A stretch of 64,000 bases of DNA, taken from contig JAUXPP010000149.1 in NCBI GenBank assembly GCA_030683705.1, positions 1 through 64,000 of the forward strand, given 5' to 3'. Source of the DNA: Polaromonas sp. (GTDB taxonomy: Bacteria; Pseudomonadota; Gammaproteobacteria; Burkholderiales; Burkholderiaceae_C). The notes under the pieces are model-generated. The model was not told the origin of the DNA. It saw nothing but the letters and a program-made list of their open reading frames with translations, and did not search any database. Each line of letters starts with the position of its first letter. Within the stretch, counting starts at the first letter, position 1. The position numbers and the translations under genes were made by a program. This document shows positions 3,686 through 44,627 of this stretch, piece after piece.

Positions 3686-4339
<654 letters not shown>

Positions 4340-4655
4340 CTGGCGATGCGGCGCTACACACGCTTAGTCGAGCACGACATCATTTAGGGAGCGCTCTATT
4401 GCAGGGTAGGCCGCTGCGATGATGTGCAGCATCCATTGCGGGAGGCCGAGATCTAGCTCGCCGGAAGACGCGAAGGAAATCGTGCGACTGTGAGAGTCGA
4501 ATTAATACACCATTGATTCCCTGGCAGTGGTTTTCAATGTGCACCCGTCGATTGTGAAGCGCTCAAGTTGTCTCGTTCTCAAACTTGGCCATTCGAGCCT
4601 ACGACAATGACTGACATGAAATCTTTCGCAGCTAGGCGAAATTTTTGGACAAGAA

Positions 4656-19437: not shown

Positions 19438-19483
19438 TGGTGCGGCTGGCAGGAATTGAACCCACGACCCCTTGGTTCGTAGC
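19438..19483 (-). repeat. Island attachment repeat, left copy (tRNA-Arg 3' fragment incl. CCA)
   Basis: 46 bp identical to 44582-44627, TGGTGCGGCTGGCAGGAATTGAACCCACGACCCCTTGGTTCGTAGC. Confidence 0.95.
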
Positions 19484-19600
19484 ATACTTCTTAGTTGCCC
19501 ATGAAAATCCAACAACGTTCATATACTCAACAAAATCAACACTTTACAAAAATACAGCGTCCAATCAAATCCAGCATAATCTAAGGAATGCCACCGTTTT

Positions 19601-19620
19601 TTCGGACACCGTTCGGACAC
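19601..19620 (+). promoter_or_regulatory. Candidate integrase arm-type sites (left)
   Basis: TTCGGACACC-GTTCGGACAC, tandem TTCGGACAC; matches right end 44479-44498 at 18/20. Confidence 0.65.
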
Positions 19621-19653
19621 GGAAGGGAAACTTACTACCACTTGGATGATGCG

Positions 19654-20952
19654 ATGGGTAACCTAACCGTAAAGCAGATTGACAGCGCCAAACCAAAAGA
19701 CAAGCCGTACAAACTGATGGACGGCGATGGGCTGCAACTGCGAATAGCCGTCGATGGCATCAAGACTTGGCTGGTGCGCTACATGTTGGACGGCAAAGAG
19801 CGGCAATACCGTCTGCCAGAACTGTATGGAGATGGTGACGGACGGCTTGGCCTCAAAGAAGCGCGTGAAAAAGCCACTCACGTTCGCGCTCTGGCACGCA
19901 ATGGCATCGACATCCAGATCAAATTGAATAACGAACGACAAGCCGAAGTCGAACGTCTGGAAGTTGAAGTTGCGCAATCCAAGACGCTGACCGACTTATT
20001 CGATGAGTGGGTCAAAACCGTTGATCGAAAAGACAACGGAAAAGAATTACGCCGCTCATTCACACGCGATGTATTTCCTGTCGCTGGCGACCTGAAATTG
20101 AGCAGCGTGCATCCTAAGCACATTGAGAAAATTCTGAGAGGCGTGGTTGATCGTGGTTCGCACCGTATCTCGGTCACCCTCTTCGCCGACCTCAAGCAGA
20201 TGTTCCGCTGGGCTGCTCGCAAGCGCGCTTGGAAACACCTCTTTGAAAATCCGACAGAAGAAATTGATCTCAAAAAGGACAAAATCCTGCCACGGGAGTA
20301 TGAAGGCGCTGAACGCACCCGCGCATTGAGCGATGACGAGGTACGGGAACTGGCCGAAAAGCTGCCTAAATCCGGCTTAATGCCAAGAACTCAGATTGCC
20401 ATGTGGCTGATGTTGTCCTGCTGTAGCCGCATCGGCGAAGTCATTCAAGCGCGCTGGGAACACGTTGACCTTAATGCTGGCACCTGGGTGATTCCGAAAG
20501 AGAACGCTAAAAACCGCAAAACGCACACGATATTTTTATCCCCTGTTGCGCTCAAGAAATTCCAAGAACTGAAGCAGATTTCGACGAACGACAAATGGTG
20601 TTTTCCGGACACCAGCGGCACTACCCACGTCTGCATGAAGTCAACGACCAAGCAAGTTCGTGATCGGCAAATGGCCGCAATTGGTCGAAAGCCCATGAGC
20701 AACCGTACTAAAAATTCAGATGCCCTACTGCTGGTCAATGGTGACTGGGTGCCGCACGATTTACCGCGAACTGGCGCAACAATAATGCAATCGTTACATG
20801 TTGCACCCGCCATCATTGAGCGCGTGCTGAATCACGTTGAACCCAGCAAGCTTGTACGGACATACCAGACATACGACTATGCCGAAGAGAAGAGAGATGC
20901 ATGGAACCGACTGGGAAAAAGACTGTCGGAGCTAGTGCCTCAGCTTGCATAG
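19654..20952 (+). CDS. P4-type tyrosine integrase with N-terminal DUF4102-like arm-binding domain
   Basis: MGNLTVKQIDSAKPKDKPYKLMDGDGLQLRI..., catalytic R (CCSRIGEVIQARWEHVD), and VPHDLPRTGATIM...VLNHV. Start MGNL preferred over 19588. Confidence 0.93.
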   Translation: MGNLTVKQIDSAKPKDKPYKLMDGDGLQLRIAVDGIKTWLVRYMLDGKERQYRLPELYGDGDGRLGLKEAREKATHVRALARNGIDIQIKLNNERQAEVERLEVEVAQSKTLTDLFDEWVKTVDRKDNGKELRRSFTRDVFPVAGDLKLSSVHPKHIEKILRGVVDRGSHRISVTLFADLKQMFRWAARKRAWKHLFENPTEEIDLKKDKILPREYEGAERTRALSDDEVRELAEKLPKSGLMPRTQIAMWLMLSCCSRIGEVIQARWEHVDLNAGTWVIPKENAKNRKTHTIFLSPVALKKFQELKQISTNDKWCFPDTSGTTHVCMKSTTKQVRDRQMAAIGRKPMSNRTKNSDALLLVNGDWVPHDLPRTGATIMQSLHVAPAIIERVLNHVEPSKLVRTYQTYDYAEEKRDAWNRLGKRLSELVPQLA

Positions 20953-21000: not shown

Positions 21001-21864
21001 TCAGGGGACATCGCCGCTCGCGAACACCTGCATCGCAACGGCCGCGCTACTGTGATCGGCTGGGTCCCGTAGGACCGTGGTGTTTCCGCTGTATTCAAAT
21101 GCGTGCAGGTAGGCTTCTCTACCGTCAATGCGAAACAAGAACCCAACGGCAGGACGTCCGGGGACTTTGATGGCAATCCCCGGATTACCAGCCCGCGACA
21201 GGCCATCTACACCTGAAATCTTTTTATTATCCAAAAGCTTTGAGAGAAATTGACTGCAGTGCATCAATGGCTGCCATTGGCCAAGATAGTTGATGTACAG
21301 GGTGGAGTCGAGGAAGTTCGCGGGAAGCCCAAGTGCCTTGATTTTTTGAGCGTTGCTTGAAACCGCTGGCGCGGGCTGTGCAGCAGGAGCTTTCTGTGCC
21401 TCAGGCGGCGCAGACTGGGTCTTGAATTCAGCGTCTACCTCAGCCGACGACGTACAGCTAGGAAACACGCCGCTGAGTACGGGGTATTCGCACACTGCAT
21501 CAATGCGTTCCTGGTATCGCTTGCCGATGCAATTCACGTCAGCGCATTGATTCCGGATTGCGAGCCAGGACCGTTGGGTTGATCTGAGGTTGCTGAGTGC
21601 ACCACCACCAATATTGGCTGCACTCATGGCCCGGTAGTTCTGTGCGAGTACTTCGTCCAGCCTTCCAAGCCGCTTGTCAGCGCAGATTGCTTTCTCGACT
21701 GCCGTCCCTGCTTTCGCGCAATCAAATGAAGCTGCTTGACCAAGGCCAGCAGTCTGGGACAACACGATGAGAAGCGCGGTTTTGAGAGTCGCAAGTAGAT
21801 GTCCTTTCCGACTGCAGAGAGGTGACGTGGTTGGTTTCAAGCTATCGACACATGCATTGGACAT
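21001..21864 (-). CDS. Secreted LprI/DUF1311-like protein
   Basis: Signal peptide (LLATLKTALLIVLSQTAGLGQA) then FDCAKAGTAVEKAICADKRLGRLDEVLAQNYRAM...QRSWLAIRNQCAD. Start at MSNAC with AGGAG RBS. Confidence 0.8.
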   Translation of the reverse strand: MSNACVDSLKPTTSPLCSRKGHLLATLKTALLIVLSQTAGLGQAASFDCAKAGTAVEKAICADKRLGRLDEVLAQNYRAMSAANIGGGALSNLRSTQRSWLAIRNQCADVNCIGKRYQERIDAVCEYPVLSGVFPSCTSSAEVDAEFKTQSAPPEAQKAPAAQPAPAVSSNAQKIKALGLPANFLDSTLYINYLGQWQPLMHCSQFLSKLLDNKKISGVDGLSRAGNPGIAIKVPGRPAVGFLFRIDGREAYLHAFEYSGNTTVLRDPADHSSAAVAMQVFASGDVP

Positions 21865-22012: not shown

Positions 22013-22069
22013 GACTATGAGTCACGTTTATATCAAAGAAAGTGACTCATAGTCCGTAGTCTCTTAGTC
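22013..22069. promoter_or_regulatory. C-box-like operator array (GACTNNNAGTC x2 plus one near-match)
   Basis: GACTATGAGTC 22013-22023, GACTCATAGTC 22044-22054, GTCTCTTAGTC 22059-22069; 22013-22025 and 22042-22054 form a perfect 13-bp inverted repeat. Confidence 0.7.
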
Positions 22070-22074
22070 GTCGA

Positions 22075-22458
22075 ATGTTGAACATCGACGCTGTGACAAC
22101 CACCAAAGAAAAGCCAAAATCGCCGTCCCGACGTGGCGTCAAAGAGCCGCTAAGTGCAAGAGGCCGTGGATCAGTGAAAAATCCTCCTCCCGATGGCAGA
22201 CTGCTCGAAATTTTTGCGTCGAATGTGCGGCTCGTCCGAGGGATCAAAGGCTTATCCCAAGAAGGACTAGCCGATTTGAGCGATTTAGACCGCACGTATA
22301 TCAGCGGGATTGAGCGAAAGCTCAGGAATGTGTCCATCCGCAATATCCAGCGAATTGCTGACGCGCTGCAAGTCGATGCACGAATCCTGCTCGATCCGGA
22401 TTTGTCGAGCCGCGACGCTGTGCCAACTGGCAAGTTACTGCTCCCATTAGCTCCGTAA
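22075..22458 (+). CDS. XRE-family regulator resembling R-M controller (C) proteins
   Basis: NVRLVRGIKGLSQEGLADLSDLDRTYISGIERKLRNVSIRNIQRIADALQV HTH. Confidence 0.85.
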   Translation: MLNIDAVTTTKEKPKSPSRRGVKEPLSARGRGSVKNPPPDGRLLEIFASNVRLVRGIKGLSQEGLADLSDLDRTYISGIERKLRNVSIRNIQRIADALQVDARILLDPDLSSRDAVPTGKLLLPLAP

Positions 22459-22611: not shown

Positions 22612-23511
22612 TCAGCGGCGCCGTGGGGATTTTTTTTCTAAATCATGGCCGCGCCGCAAGCTTTCGCCGCTGTAAAGCGAGACATCGTCCACACCGGCAT
22701 CGAGCAGCCGCTTTTTGACGAGGGCAGCGATGTATCCGGAGTCAAGCCGTTCGCCGAACACAGGCTCCCCTGACCGTGTAAATCGCGGGAACAGCGGTCC
22801 CTGTTGTCCCTCCAGTCCATTGTGCGCAATCCATTCTTGGCAGGCAGTCGCCGCACACAGTGGACCTCGCGTCATCGGTATTGCTACGATCCGGCTATCT
22901 GGGGCAGGCATGTGTCCATTACTGTCGGTATAGACGCTCCCTGCCGCAGGTCGCAATCGCAAGAGCAAAACATCCTGCGTAAATGTCATATCCTCCAGAT
23001 TCAGTGCACAGATTGCCCCTCGCTTGAGTCGGCCAACAAAGCCCAAAAGGAAAATCGCTTTGTCCCTGCGGTCCAGACTCCGTTGTCCAGATCCCATAGA
23101 GTCCAGCATCCGAGTCAGCAGGGCCCTTGTGATCGGCGCCGCAACTTTGGGAGTCTTGCGTTGCACAAAGCTTGGGTTCCCTTTACCCTGCTTCGCGTCG
23201 AGCAGATTGATGGGTAGATCGCCGCTAGACAAATGCCTGAGTGCGGTGCGGATACGAATGTCGGCGGTTGGCGAAGGAAGTCCTCGTTTGATGTGGGCAT
23301 CTTGAATCGCCATGATGCGGCGGACAACCGTGGGCGGCGCTACACGCCTGGACAGCAGTCGAATGTATGAAACGATTTCGTCTGCACTCGCCGGGATTTT
23401 TCCACCGTATGTGTCGGTGAACTGCCGCACATCTTTGGCATAGGCGTTCGCGGTTGATGTGCGATGCTTTGCGGGCGTGCGGGGACGCTCCCGCTGTAAA
23501 GCGTGATTCAT
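22612..23511 (-). pseudogene. Tyrosine recombinase, apparently C-terminally truncated
   Basis: N-terminal SAM-like and catalytic region recognisable (KAIFLLGFVGRLKRGAICALNLEDM ... YSGESLRRGH), but the ORF ends at LEKKSPRRR* without the GH...Y tail. Confidence 0.7.
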
Positions 23512-23552: not shown

Positions 23553-24242
23553 TTAAACGACAGCGGAAAGGCCGCGGGTCACGATGACCAGGCCATGCAG
23601 ACGTACGTGATGTAGTCCGCCATCTGCGCTGGAATAGCGCAGACTGTATTTCTTTGGTTTGCGGTTCTTGCCGTACTCAGATGGCTGAATCCCACACCTG
23701 GCGTTGTAAATGACGCCCCACGGAGGACGTGAATTCGACGCGTCGAGGCACAGCAGGGCGAGAGGCTTGTTTTTACCGGACTCCTTCTCCACGCCTAAAA
23801 CTGTCACCCAGTGATTCCACCCTCGGGACTCCAACGCCAGAATTGGCACGTGGCCAGCGTCAATTGCCTCAAGAATTTCCTGGGATATGTCCTTGGTGTT
23901 CCGGTTAGTCGAGACCTTGCAATTTAGTTTAGGCTCAAACGCGCCAACAAACGATTCGATTTGACGGTCTGTTGTACCTTCAAAATATGTCTTCTTTGCC
24001 AACGCCCAAAGGGTATGTAGCGGACCGGATTTGGCGCTCGACATTTCTTCCACATCTTCCCGTCGTATGCCGGCAAGTACCATTGCCGCCTGTGCGACGA
24101 CGACGATCCCGCATGCACCATCTAATTCACTCTGTGTGATGTGAAGATCATTCCAACGCAACCTGCGCTTGCCTTGAATGGCGTACTCAACGTTGGTATC
24201 AGCTCGCACACCGGCAACGAATTTATGTTGTAACTTGAGCAT
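23553..24242 (-). CDS. Papain/C39-like cysteine peptidase fold protein
   Basis: 'ELDGACGIVVVAQAAMVLAG' (Cys), 'GWNHWVTVLGVE' (His), and 'ALLCLDASN' (Asp) in the expected order. Confidence 0.6.
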   Translation of the reverse strand: MLKLQHKFVAGVRADTNVEYAIQGKRRLRWNDLHITQSELDGACGIVVVAQAAMVLAGIRREDVEEMSSAKSGPLHTLWALAKKTYFEGTTDRQIESFVGAFEPKLNCKVSTNRNTKDISQEILEAIDAGHVPILALESRGWNHWVTVLGVEKESGKNKPLALLCLDASNSRPPWGVIYNARCGIQPSEYGKNRKPKKYSLRYSSADGGLHHVRLHGLVIVTRGLSAVV

Positions 24243-24243
24243 T

Positions 24244-24618
24244 TCAATAATCCTCCGGACGCAAAATTGTTGTCACAGACCGATCCCATTCGGTGATGAC
24301 CCAAACTCTCGGACCGTCTGGATCTTGGCGCTTCTCGCCATCGAGCGCGTAACTTGACAAGAGCCGCTCACCGTTGACCAGCGCAAGGTTGTTGGTGTGT
24401 CGATCTTGCAAGCCCAAGTCACCCCAATCCCCGCTAATGTGTCGTTTTAAAAGATCGACAGGGGAAACACCGAACTTTGCAAGTAGTCGTAGCGCACCAG
24501 GCGTGGCGACTGTCTGACCAAGAGCAAACATGGGAGCAGTTGGTGCGGACCGCTGCGCATGGGAAAGCTGGGGAACGTGTTCGCTTGCTTTGGGAACAGG
24601 GTGTGATCTATCTATCAT
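24244..24618 (-). CDS. Hypothetical protein paired with the C39-like gene
   Basis: 124 aa ORF ending 1 nt before the next start; 'DLLKRHISGDWGDLGLQDRHTNNLALVNGERLLSSYAL...WVITEWDRSVTTILRPEDY'. Confidence 0.7.
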   Translation of the reverse strand: MIDRSHPVPKASEHVPQLSHAQRSAPTAPMFALGQTVATPGALRLLAKFGVSPVDLLKRHISGDWGDLGLQDRHTNNLALVNGERLLSSYALDGEKRQDPDGPRVWVITEWDRSVTTILRPEDY

Positions 24619-39667: not shown

Positions 39668-40024
39668 CTAGCTTCGAACCAAGTAGATCAAACGCTTCTG
39701 CTGGCTGACCCAGTCTGCGATTGTGGATGTAGACCTTTGCCACTTACTCGCAATCACGTGATTCAGGCATTCGTCAATTACATCTGTGCTGATACCAAGA
39801 ATAGCCATCGTAATTGCAGTTGTGCGTCTGAGATCGTGTGCAGTCCAGTGTCCCTCCGGTAACATTAGTGCTTCTGTGCTGCTGGTTCGATTTGCCACTT
39901 GCTTTTCGGGAGGGCGCTGACGGTCGCTTAACTGCTTCCCGAAACTTTTGATACAGACAGGCCCCTTTTTTCGTTTATTCAGAGGTTGAAAGAAATGAAC
40001 ATTTGGCGACTTGTTGCACACCAT
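39668..40024 (-). pseudogene. C-terminal fragment of a P4-type tyrosine integrase
   Basis: 'WTAHDLRRTTAITMAILGISTDVIDECLNHV' catalytic HxxR region with no upstream domains. Confidence 0.75.
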
Positions 40025-40786
40025 GAGGATTCAGAGAAGGCGATGCGTATCTCGATTGAGAAGGGTGTCGTTGCAATCGGCTGGTCAGAAGTGGGCGATT
40101 TGGATCTTGCCAGCCCCGAATCGCAAACCGACATTACGCACATGATCAGGCAGGCTCATCCAAGCCTGAGTAACTCTCATCTTGGGGGCCCGAGCCTGTG
40201 GAACTTCTACAAAAGAGTCTCCATCGGGGACCTTGTCATCCTTAGTGCATCTGGTGCACGTAAAAAAGTCTTTGAGGTCATTGGTGATTACTTCTTCACC
40301 GATGACAGTGAGTCTGTTGAAGGCTACTGTCATCAGCGGGCAGCACAACTAACCAACCTAGGTGCTAGCCAGGTATGGCAAGACTGCGGTGGATCGTATG
40401 CGCAGGGACAAAATCAACGGTGGACATTTGCCCAGTGCCGTGACACTCCCCAAGCATTAGATACAGTCTATATAGAAGGGGGTCGATACGAGGTTAGATC
40501 CACTGCAATAGAGCGGAATCCTGACGCTCGTGCGAAATGTCTCGATCATTACGGCTACTCATGCAGGGTGTGCTCCTTCAATTTCGAAGAGGAGTTTGGG
40601 ATTGAAGGGCGAGCATTCATTCACGTACATCACCGAGTTGATATCGCGCAATCAACGGGTGCATACAAAGTTGACCCTATTCGGGATTTGATACCACTAT
40701 GTCCCAATTGCCACGCTATGGCGCATCGAAAAAGGCCTGCCTTCGATATTGAAGTGTTGACAACTATGCGAAGGACAAGCACGTGA
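39995..40786 (+). CDS. EVE-like plus HNH nuclease, putative type IV restriction enzyme
   Basis: MNIWRLVAHHEDSEKAMRISIEKGVVAIGWSEVGDL (EVE-like reader), C-terminal CRVC...FIHVHHRVD...DLIPLCPNCHAMAH (HNH). TTG 39986 is an alternative start. Confidence 0.8.
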   Translation: MNIWRLVAHHEDSEKAMRISIEKGVVAIGWSEVGDLDLASPESQTDITHMIRQAHPSLSNSHLGGPSLWNFYKRVSIGDLVILSASGARKKVFEVIGDYFFTDDSESVEGYCHQRAAQLTNLGASQVWQDCGGSYAQGQNQRWTFAQCRDTPQALDTVYIEGGRYEVRSTAIERNPDARAKCLDHYGYSCRVCSFNFEEEFGIEGRAFIHVHHRVDIAQSTGAYKVDPIRDLIPLCPNCHAMAHRKRPAFDIEVLTTMRRTST

Positions 40787-40800
40787 AGATTTCAGTTCGA

Positions 40801-43059
40801 TTAGGGTCGCAAACCTAGACCTAGATATACGTTGCATTTATTTGTTGAGCGACGGTGGTAGCCGCTCTTTTCCATTCGTTCGCGAAATGCCTTTCGAGTG
40901 AGAGGATTCCGGCCACCGGGCTTGGCATATTGAAAATAGCTGTCATAGCCTTTGCTAGCTTGCAGCCTGCCGCCACTGTTTACGACGCAGCAATCAATAA
41001 TCCATCCACTGAACGTATCGGCCTCTTTGCGCATCATGCGCTTGTGTTCCTCAACCGCATCACACGAAACCAAACAGCCGTCTTTATGATATCGTCGAGC
41101 CCCTGCTAGGGCCCAGTTCAGAATGCCAGGCAACTCAGCCAACAGTTTTTCCTCAAGGTCATCATCACGGTTTTCGCCCGAAAATGTGGCTTTAAACGGT
41201 ATGGGAAATATACGTCGCCACATTGCTTTGTCCGTAACGGCTATTTCCGGCATGTCATTGGTTGAGATGACAAGTTTTCCCTCCGGTTTAAACGTAATCT
41301 GATCGCCGTAGTTGGCGCGGGCGGTGATCGAATCCCCCCCGGAAAATTGCTTCACAAACGCGGTATCAAAGCCCCTCGAATTTGGTAGCTCCGTCACAAT
41401 CCCCAGTCGAATGCCCTTGAGTACCATTAGCGCTGGGGTCGAATCGTTCGCGCTACCAGCATAGGCGGATGTAATCAAATTTGGGGCAAGCTCTCTGGCG
41501 TACGCGCCAAGTAATTTGACCAAAGTCCTCATGAAAACTCCTTTGCCGTTCTCACCAGTACCTTCGAGAACGAAGAACGCTTGAGCCTTGGTATGACCGT
41601 ACAGTATGTAGCCGACGGCGCGGCGGAGGAATGCTGCCAATTCCCTGTCCTCACAAGTGATCTGTCGAAGGAACTTCCGCCACTGCGGACATTTAGCATT
41701 TATGTCATATTCAACACTTGCACAGCGGCGTAAATAGTCTTTAGGGGTCGCCATTCGTATTGCGCTCGTACGGAGATCAATAACACCATTCTTGACCGCC
41801 AGATCGTGAGTGTTTTTGTCGAAATCGAGTTCGCTGATGTGGAGCCTTGTTTCGTACTCGGCCTGACTAACAATGGCTTTCATCCCTGCCGTGCTGCGGT
41901 AACGTTTTATTGCTGGGTCTTTCTTGCCCTCTCCCTCACTTAGATCTGCAACCATTCGACGCACCGCACGTATGTGTGCCTGTTTGTCTGAATGCCAAAC
42001 TACGCCATCGAATGCGTACCAAATACCCATCTGTGGGTCATATCGCAACTCCCATTTGAAAGTCTTGGCGTACAGCGCGGCAACCTCCATATCATCTAAT
42101 CCCCCTCCCCCTCTTTCCGCGTGCGCTGCTAACCAATAGAGAGACTGGAGTGTGATGCCACCGGTTGATTTGAAGCTGCTCCACGCTACCTGTTGGTCTG
42201 CGTCATCAAACTTGCTGCTGCGCTTTGACCAGGAAGTCCATTCTTCGTATCCGTCCGACCCTGGCATAGCGCTATGGATTGCCATCCCTACTCGACGCCA
42301 TTGCAATCGGTCATCAGCACTTAGTGCGGAAAGCGCACGGTGGACTTTTTTCAGTTCTCTTGCACTCACTTTCTTTTCGGTGCTGGCTCCCGTGATTGAA
42401 GGCTCGTGTATCGGGGTCGTACGCTTTAGCTTGGGTAACTGCAATTTGAGCGTCTTAACCAACCGGGCAACAGTTACGGGTCGATGGTTAGACGTATGAA
42501 TCACATGGGTCAAAAACGGAGTGCGGTGGTTTAAATTGATGCTGCCGGGTAATCGCATCACACGCGCGGGATCGCAGATGCTAGGGTCGGTTTTGAAGTG
42601 GTTTGCTAGCGCTATCTGCAGTGGTTTGAACAGCTTTACGTCGCAGTCACTTAGCAGCCAGTACGCGTGAAGGCGCGTGGGTGATGACTCAATTACATAT
42701 TGAGGCGCTAAACGTAGGGACAGCAAGGTTTGCAGGTCCAGATTTCCGTCGTCGCTGTCAATAAAAGCTGCATTGATGGATCGCACATTACTGTTACTAC
42801 GCTTGTCTCCTTCGATATTGTTGACTGCTATAGACACGTTCGAACCGCCCCTATTTGCGGCTTCCAGTTGGGCTAGAAGATTCGGGGTGAGTTTGGCTTT
42901 AAAACTTTGAATTGGCGTACTTCTTGGCACGTTGTACTTACCTGGATACGTCTGAAACCAAATAGACTTACCTTTGCCATGCAGTTGTTCTATAAATTGA
43001 CCCATAGCTTTGGTATCTGGCTTGAGAGGCGAATGTTCATTCTTGCTGTTGTTTGTCAT
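40801..43059 (-). CDS. Phage/plasmid primase-helicase (RepB-like primase, D5-like helicase)
   Basis: NAAFIDSDDGN primase-like region, FFVLEGTGENGKGVFMRTLVKLLGAYA helicase Walker A. Confidence 0.88.
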   Translation of the reverse strand: MTNNSKNEHSPLKPDTKAMGQFIEQLHGKGKSIWFQTYPGKYNVPRSTPIQSFKAKLTPNLLAQLEAANRGGSNVSIAVNNIEGDKRSNSNVRSINAAFIDSDDGNLDLQTLLSLRLAPQYVIESSPTRLHAYWLLSDCDVKLFKPLQIALANHFKTDPSICDPARVMRLPGSINLNHRTPFLTHVIHTSNHRPVTVARLVKTLKLQLPKLKRTTPIHEPSITGASTEKKVSARELKKVHRALSALSADDRLQWRRVGMAIHSAMPGSDGYEEWTSWSKRSSKFDDADQQVAWSSFKSTGGITLQSLYWLAAHAERGGGGLDDMEVAALYAKTFKWELRYDPQMGIWYAFDGVVWHSDKQAHIRAVRRMVADLSEGEGKKDPAIKRYRSTAGMKAIVSQAEYETRLHISELDFDKNTHDLAVKNGVIDLRTSAIRMATPKDYLRRCASVEYDINAKCPQWRKFLRQITCEDRELAAFLRRAVGYILYGHTKAQAFFVLEGTGENGKGVFMRTLVKLLGAYARELAPNLITSAYAGSANDSTPALMVLKGIRLGIVTELPNSRGFDTAFVKQFSGGDSITARANYGDQITFKPEGKLVISTNDMPEIAVTDKAMWRRIFPIPFKATFSGENRDDDLEEKLLAELPGILNWALAGARRYHKDGCLVSCDAVEEHKRMMRKEADTFSGWIIDCCVVNSGGRLQASKGYDSYFQYAKPGGRNPLTRKAFRERMEKSGYHRRSTNKCNVYLGLGLRP

Positions 43060-44581: not shown

Positions 44582-44627
44582 TGGTGCGGCTGGCAGGAAT
44601 TGAACCCACGACCCCTTGGTTCGTAGC
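44582..44627 (-). repeat. Island attachment repeat, right copy (within intact tRNA-Arg)
   Basis: 46 bp identical to 19438-19483. Confidence 0.95.

Follow-up and report, generated by a model that had tools for sequence, protein, structure and literature searches.

Thanks to C proteins, the textbook timing switches, restriction enzymes can be introduced safely into new cells. What does such a controller regulate when no type II restriction-modification (R-M) gene stands beside it? The question arises in a 64,000-nucleotide stretch of Polaromonas sp. (contig JAUXPP010000149.1, positions 1 to 64,000; hereafter the window), where a preliminary description, made from the letters alone, proposed an orphan C-type timing switch at 22013-22458, possibly recruited to control an LprI-like gene or the defence genes of a genomic island. 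Our answer, which we consider probable without holding it firmly, is that the locus encodes a functional C-type autoregulator of an integrative element, with an envelope gene in the slot of the methyltransferase that is expressed on entry and then repressed.

The regulator is a small XRE/HTH_3 protein related to known C proteins (Pfam HTH_3, 1.6e-11; PADLOC Control_protein, E 3.4e-20). Its PDB matches include C.AhdI (4e-12), NHTF (1e-11, the second-best), C.BclI (3e-10) and C.Esp1396I (1e-9). Residues T36, Y37 and R46 of C.Esp1396I contribute to DNA binding (PMC4041747); their counterparts T74, Y75 and R84 (127-aa numbering) are invariant in all seven aligned proteins, and the contact residue S52 is replaced by N90 in the window protein, leaving three of these four identical. 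The C-type assignment of the preliminary description is thus well founded. In addition, the protein has a basic N-terminal extension of roughly 40 aa with a conserved LSxxGRG motif, absent from standard C proteins.

The start codon has to be revised. The gene had been read from ATG 22075 as 127 aa, but this ATG is not conserved, and all eight loci compared below have an in-frame GTG at almost equal distance past the operator. We therefore place the probable start at GTG 22093, which gives a 121-aa protein (22093-22458, plus strand). The conserved GTG sits 6-7 nt past a weak -10-like stretch.

Three C-boxes precede the gene. O1 (22013-22023, minus strand; GACTATGAGTC as written) is, from its sequence, a single box facing the divergent LprI-like gene; its minus-strand reading, extended by 22024-22025, is GTGACTCATAGTC. 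The controller gene itself has a tandem operator, made of the upstream box OL (22044-22054, plus strand; GACTCATAGTC) and, 15 bp from it, the downstream box OR (22059-22069, plus strand; GTCTCTTAGTC). By analogy with C.Esp1396I (PMC3758141), OR is expected to overlap the -35 region. Together, O1 and OL form a perfect 13-bp inverted repeat across 22013-22054, with arms at 22013-22025 and 22042-22054. The boxes, their spacing and the repeat had all been described correctly; only the distance needs amending, as the boxes do lie upstream of the ATG, but the first begins 62 bp before ATG 22075 and not within 57 bp.

Taken by itself, the pattern GACTNNNAGTC is not rare enough to convince: it occurs twice in the window against 0.48 expected, and 7 of 100 shuffles reach two. 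Shuffled windows contain the tandem layout 0.01 times on average; the real one contains it once. A scan of the whole 4.1-Mb genome, as had been suggested, found the 13-mer GTGACTCATAGTC exactly twice, in O1 and OL, and the tandem pattern once, all at this locus; there are no one-mismatch copies of the 13-mer in the genome, and two-mismatch sites are merely scattered. Among 399 Burkholderiales genomes scanned, the exact tandem operator pattern was found in this genome only. The controller family is therefore rare, and its relatives had to be found by protein.

As noted before, no type II R or M gene adjoins the controller in the window, so the linked endonuclease and methyltransferase typical of C proteins are missing. 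The Mod and Res genes of a type III system, 3-8 kb away, are on the opposite strand and have no operator. The idea of a genuine type II partner at another place in the genome, under the same operator, was rejected: in the 92% complete genome no second operator copy was found, GTGACTCATAGTC does not recur with one mismatch or none, and a search for a second C homologue (E 0.001) gave nothing. The controller is an orphan in this genome, as had been claimed. With no R or M gene near it, it could be a vestige: controller and boxes would be left from a type II R-M system broken by the insertion of a mobile element, and would serve self-control only. Sorokin, Severinov and Gelfand reportedly described in 2009 orphan C genes, off R-M systems and beside mobile-element genes, and interpreted them in this way.

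The locus does lie on a mobile element, an island of 25.1 kb in tRNA-Arg bounded by a 46-bp direct repeat. The left attachment repeat is at 19438-19483 and the right one, the 3' end of the tRNA gene, at 44582-44627. A tyrosine-type integrase (19588-20952, plus strand) stands 1.1 kb from the controller. On the minus strand follow three conserved neighbours, of 299 aa (22612-23511), 229 aa (23553-24242) and 124 aa (24244-24618). The first is weakly Cre-recombinase-like (E 0.006) and stops soon after GESLRRGH; the GESLR motif is conserved near the end in four of four loci (the window, L046, L047 and L050), and the protein may be without the usual recombinase C-terminus. The second matches nothing in Pfam or PDB, for which reason a papain-like identity seen by eye was dropped, and the third has no Pfam match.

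The cargo of the island also includes a resolvase, a NACHT protein, an HNH protein and a D5-type primase; no conjugation genes were seen among the island proteins examined. Between 25611 and 35763, genes for a type III Res, a Mod, an AAA protein (best PADLOC match LmuB) and a DrmD-like SNF2 helicase stand in a row on one strand, and no single named defence system spanning this set was found in the libraries searched. A NACHT-domain NTPase (PF05729; 37250-39397) and an HNH endonuclease-domain protein (39986-40786), possibly further defence genes by their domains, come next. The D5-type primase/helicase (40801-43059) is of a type known from phage satellites and other integrative elements, and suggests a hint at how the island replicates.

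The controller could act as the master repressor of such an element, silencing integration, excision or defence cargo like a phage repressor. The integrase is only 1.1 kb away, and some relatives of the controller adjoin a recombination-directionality-factor-like gene (PF18897). The boxes speak otherwise. There is no exact C-box elsewhere on the island, whose only other extended-consensus site lies inside the res coding sequence. One-mismatch boxes fall within coding sequence, of type III and AAA genes (26813, 28331 and 32226) and of the HNH gene (40304), and a scan of the island found none preceding the integrase or any defence gene. The mark of a master repressor, operators at genes for integration, excision or early functions, is thus missing on the island, and we regard this role as quite improbable. 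Control of the type III R-M/DrmD defence genes, one half of the recruitment proposed earlier, was rejected since no exact box precedes them.

Comparison with relatives bears more directly on the functional autoregulator. Our set comprises seven Burkholderiales homologues: six on genome contigs (L046-L051), and L208, added later from a family survey. The tandem operator with 15-bp spacing is present in all seven and in the window, hence in eight of eight loci, as well as in the C.PvuII control. In 7/8 loci 15 bp is the best or tied-best repeat distance; in L208 the tandem boxes are there, but this distance does not stand out. In a small tree, the window protein and its homologues make one clade (98/95), apart from C.PvuII and another R-M-linked C protein. 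The dN/dS ratio is 0.12 for the window against L046, 0.14 against L047 and 0.10 for L048 against L049, rough values as dS is above 1. By this measure (about 0.12, with the same reserve on dS > 1) the controller protein is under purifying selection. The contig of L046, labelled Anaerolineales, carries the same integrase (98%) at the same attachment sequence, and the controller occupies a slot beside the same neighbours in different hosts. Judged by these comparisons, the locus belongs to a conserved family carried by integrative elements and is not peculiar to this genome. Strong selection on the protein, a tandem operator kept in eight loci, an O1 facing the divergent gene in six and one slot kept beside the same neighbours in different hosts are hardly what a broken R-M system would leave behind, and we think a vestige unlikely.

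The divergent gene remains to be considered. In the window it spans 21001-21864 (minus strand) and encodes about 287 aa with a signal peptide-like N-terminus and an LprI domain (PF07007). A separate box with at most one mismatch faces the divergent gene in five of the six divergent intergenic regions first examined (P about 3e-6 by shuffling). Counterparts of O1 within this limit are found in L046, L047, L049 and L051, and also in L208; L050 has no separate O1, and L048 was left out as its contig ends there. The single box is thus kept in six of the seven loci that show this side, the window included. This points to the LprI-like gene as a likely target of the controller, the half of the earlier proposal that stands.

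The divergent genes are of several types. An LprI domain occurs in the window, in L047 and in L046, where it falls just below the Pfam cut-off; the others are zinc-ribbon/TM, GYF_2, and secreted or lipoprotein-like. By a simple hydropathy criterion all seven look membrane-bound or secreted, compared with 4 of 19 neighbouring genes in the window; the cut-off (1.55) was fixed after the window protein had been seen, which passes narrowly at 1.56. As these envelope genes vary from locus to locus, they serve no single function.

Is the divergent gene repressed or activated? An upstream box is where C proteins act to switch on their own promoters (PMC12707154), and O1 and the divergent start codon are over 100 bp apart in the window (154 bp to the probable ATG), L046 and L047, so that O1 might be an upstream activator site of the envelope gene. 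Activation does not suit L049, L051 and L208, where O1 is about 29-49 bp from the start codon. Since this leaves no room downstream for a full promoter, repression is favoured, and an activating role appears doubtful. Of the six loci that have O1, five carry a hairpin and a T-run immediately preceding it on the divergent strand, which would insulate the divergent gene from read-through. The window lacks them, and its O1 and OL are correspondingly close. With O1 154 bp away and the hairpin missing, repression by promoter occlusion is less clear in the window than in its relatives.

Among known systems, the closest in design is that of C.Esp1396I, with one tandem operator (OL and OR) for C and R and a lone operator, set apart, for M (PMC3758141, PMC4041747). 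The two share an HTH with the same base-reading residues (T36, R46), a nearly identical tandem OL/OR at the controller's own gene (ATGTGACTTATAGTC... there, GTGACTCATAGTC... here) and a separate single operator at another gene (PMC3758141, PMC4041747). In Esp1396I, however, this single operator serves the methyltransferase, C is co-transcribed with the endonuclease, and M is convergent. In the window, the lone box is turned towards a divergent envelope gene, the controller gene is not followed by an endonuclease gene, and the protein bears its roughly 40-aa basic extension.

C.PvuII (L165, Proteus vulgaris pPvu1) is 55% identical over the HTH, and its operator, read as a control, is TACTCATAGTC-tgta-GATTCAAAGTC with the same spacing; unlike the window controller, it has a gene that overlaps the endonuclease gene of PvuII, with the methyltransferase gene divergent to it. 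Neisserial NHTF (PDB 3vk0) is an XRE autorepressor not tied to R-M genes (PMC5722371), but its targets are its own gene and glnD, and by inspection its sequence is nearer the second orphan group described below than the window protein. Small regulators beyond type II R-M also include a C-type regulator of a type I R-M locus in Mollicutes (PMC5282649) and RptR (PMC12255303). Both, however, still govern restriction genes, and the RptR site is TAGCTA.

We now propose a circuit for the functional autoregulator. At low concentration C proteins are activators, at high concentration repressors (PMC12707154). By this precedent, a controller dimer would bind OL and turn on its own near-leaderless gene; as the controller accumulates, cooperative binding to OR, 15 bp downstream, would turn it off again. 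The controller would also bind the separate O1 and block the promoter of the divergent envelope gene. In a naive cell that the element has just entered, expression of the envelope gene would then come first, presumably to the element's benefit, and its repression would follow when enough controller is present. The circuit would be that of C.Esp1396I, with the envelope gene replacing the methyltransferase.

Similar arrangements occur beyond the family. In another Burkholderiales genome (L209), which served as a further control, a C gene lies, by inspection, beside a divergent methyltransferase-like gene in the same layout, and orphan genes of C-like type, with boxes resembling those of PvuII, are found on plasmids of Methylibium and Sulfuricella. 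C-like orphans of two further groups (loci L017, L020, L021, L210, L212, L214-L217, L219 and L220) have other half-sites, GATGCAAA and TTCAAACAC, mostly 15 bp apart, several single cases not being significant alone. They often adjoin a PF18897/YqaJ/DUF932 module, as L048, L049 and L208 do. By inspection, L216 has a cytosine methyltransferase-like gene nearby, so freedom from R-M genes does not extend to every group member. A third, divergent operator copy was dropped as a general trait of these two groups, being found in L020 and L021 only (at most one mismatch).

A protein search of IMG/VR found no relatives of the controller, and phage records gave a distant match only. An operator-pattern search of IMG/VR yielded L126, where at 4200-4600 a C-like gene and a divergent DUF2510 gene flank a tandem GACTCATAGTC-cgtg-GACTCATTGTC. 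Its high-GC, DUF2510-bearing gene content makes the host probably actinobacterial, so that the same layout apparently recurs in a seemingly distant host.

Among Burkholderiales integrative elements, C-type controllers may even be a fixed component that comes in three or more operator classes, all with the 15-bp tandem geometry, every switch being coupled to an interchangeable divergent envelope gene; this wider claim we offer tentatively, as somewhat less probable than its contrary. If true, it would describe a general device for brief surface-protein expression on the entry of an element, with restriction-modification just one of its users. At the locus itself, conservation of the tandem operator pair and of the second operator, together with the envelope partner, speaks for the C-type switch having been put to a new working use. 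The same switch seems to time another gene when the element arrives, and the proposal makes a testable prediction of what a newly arrived element expresses first.
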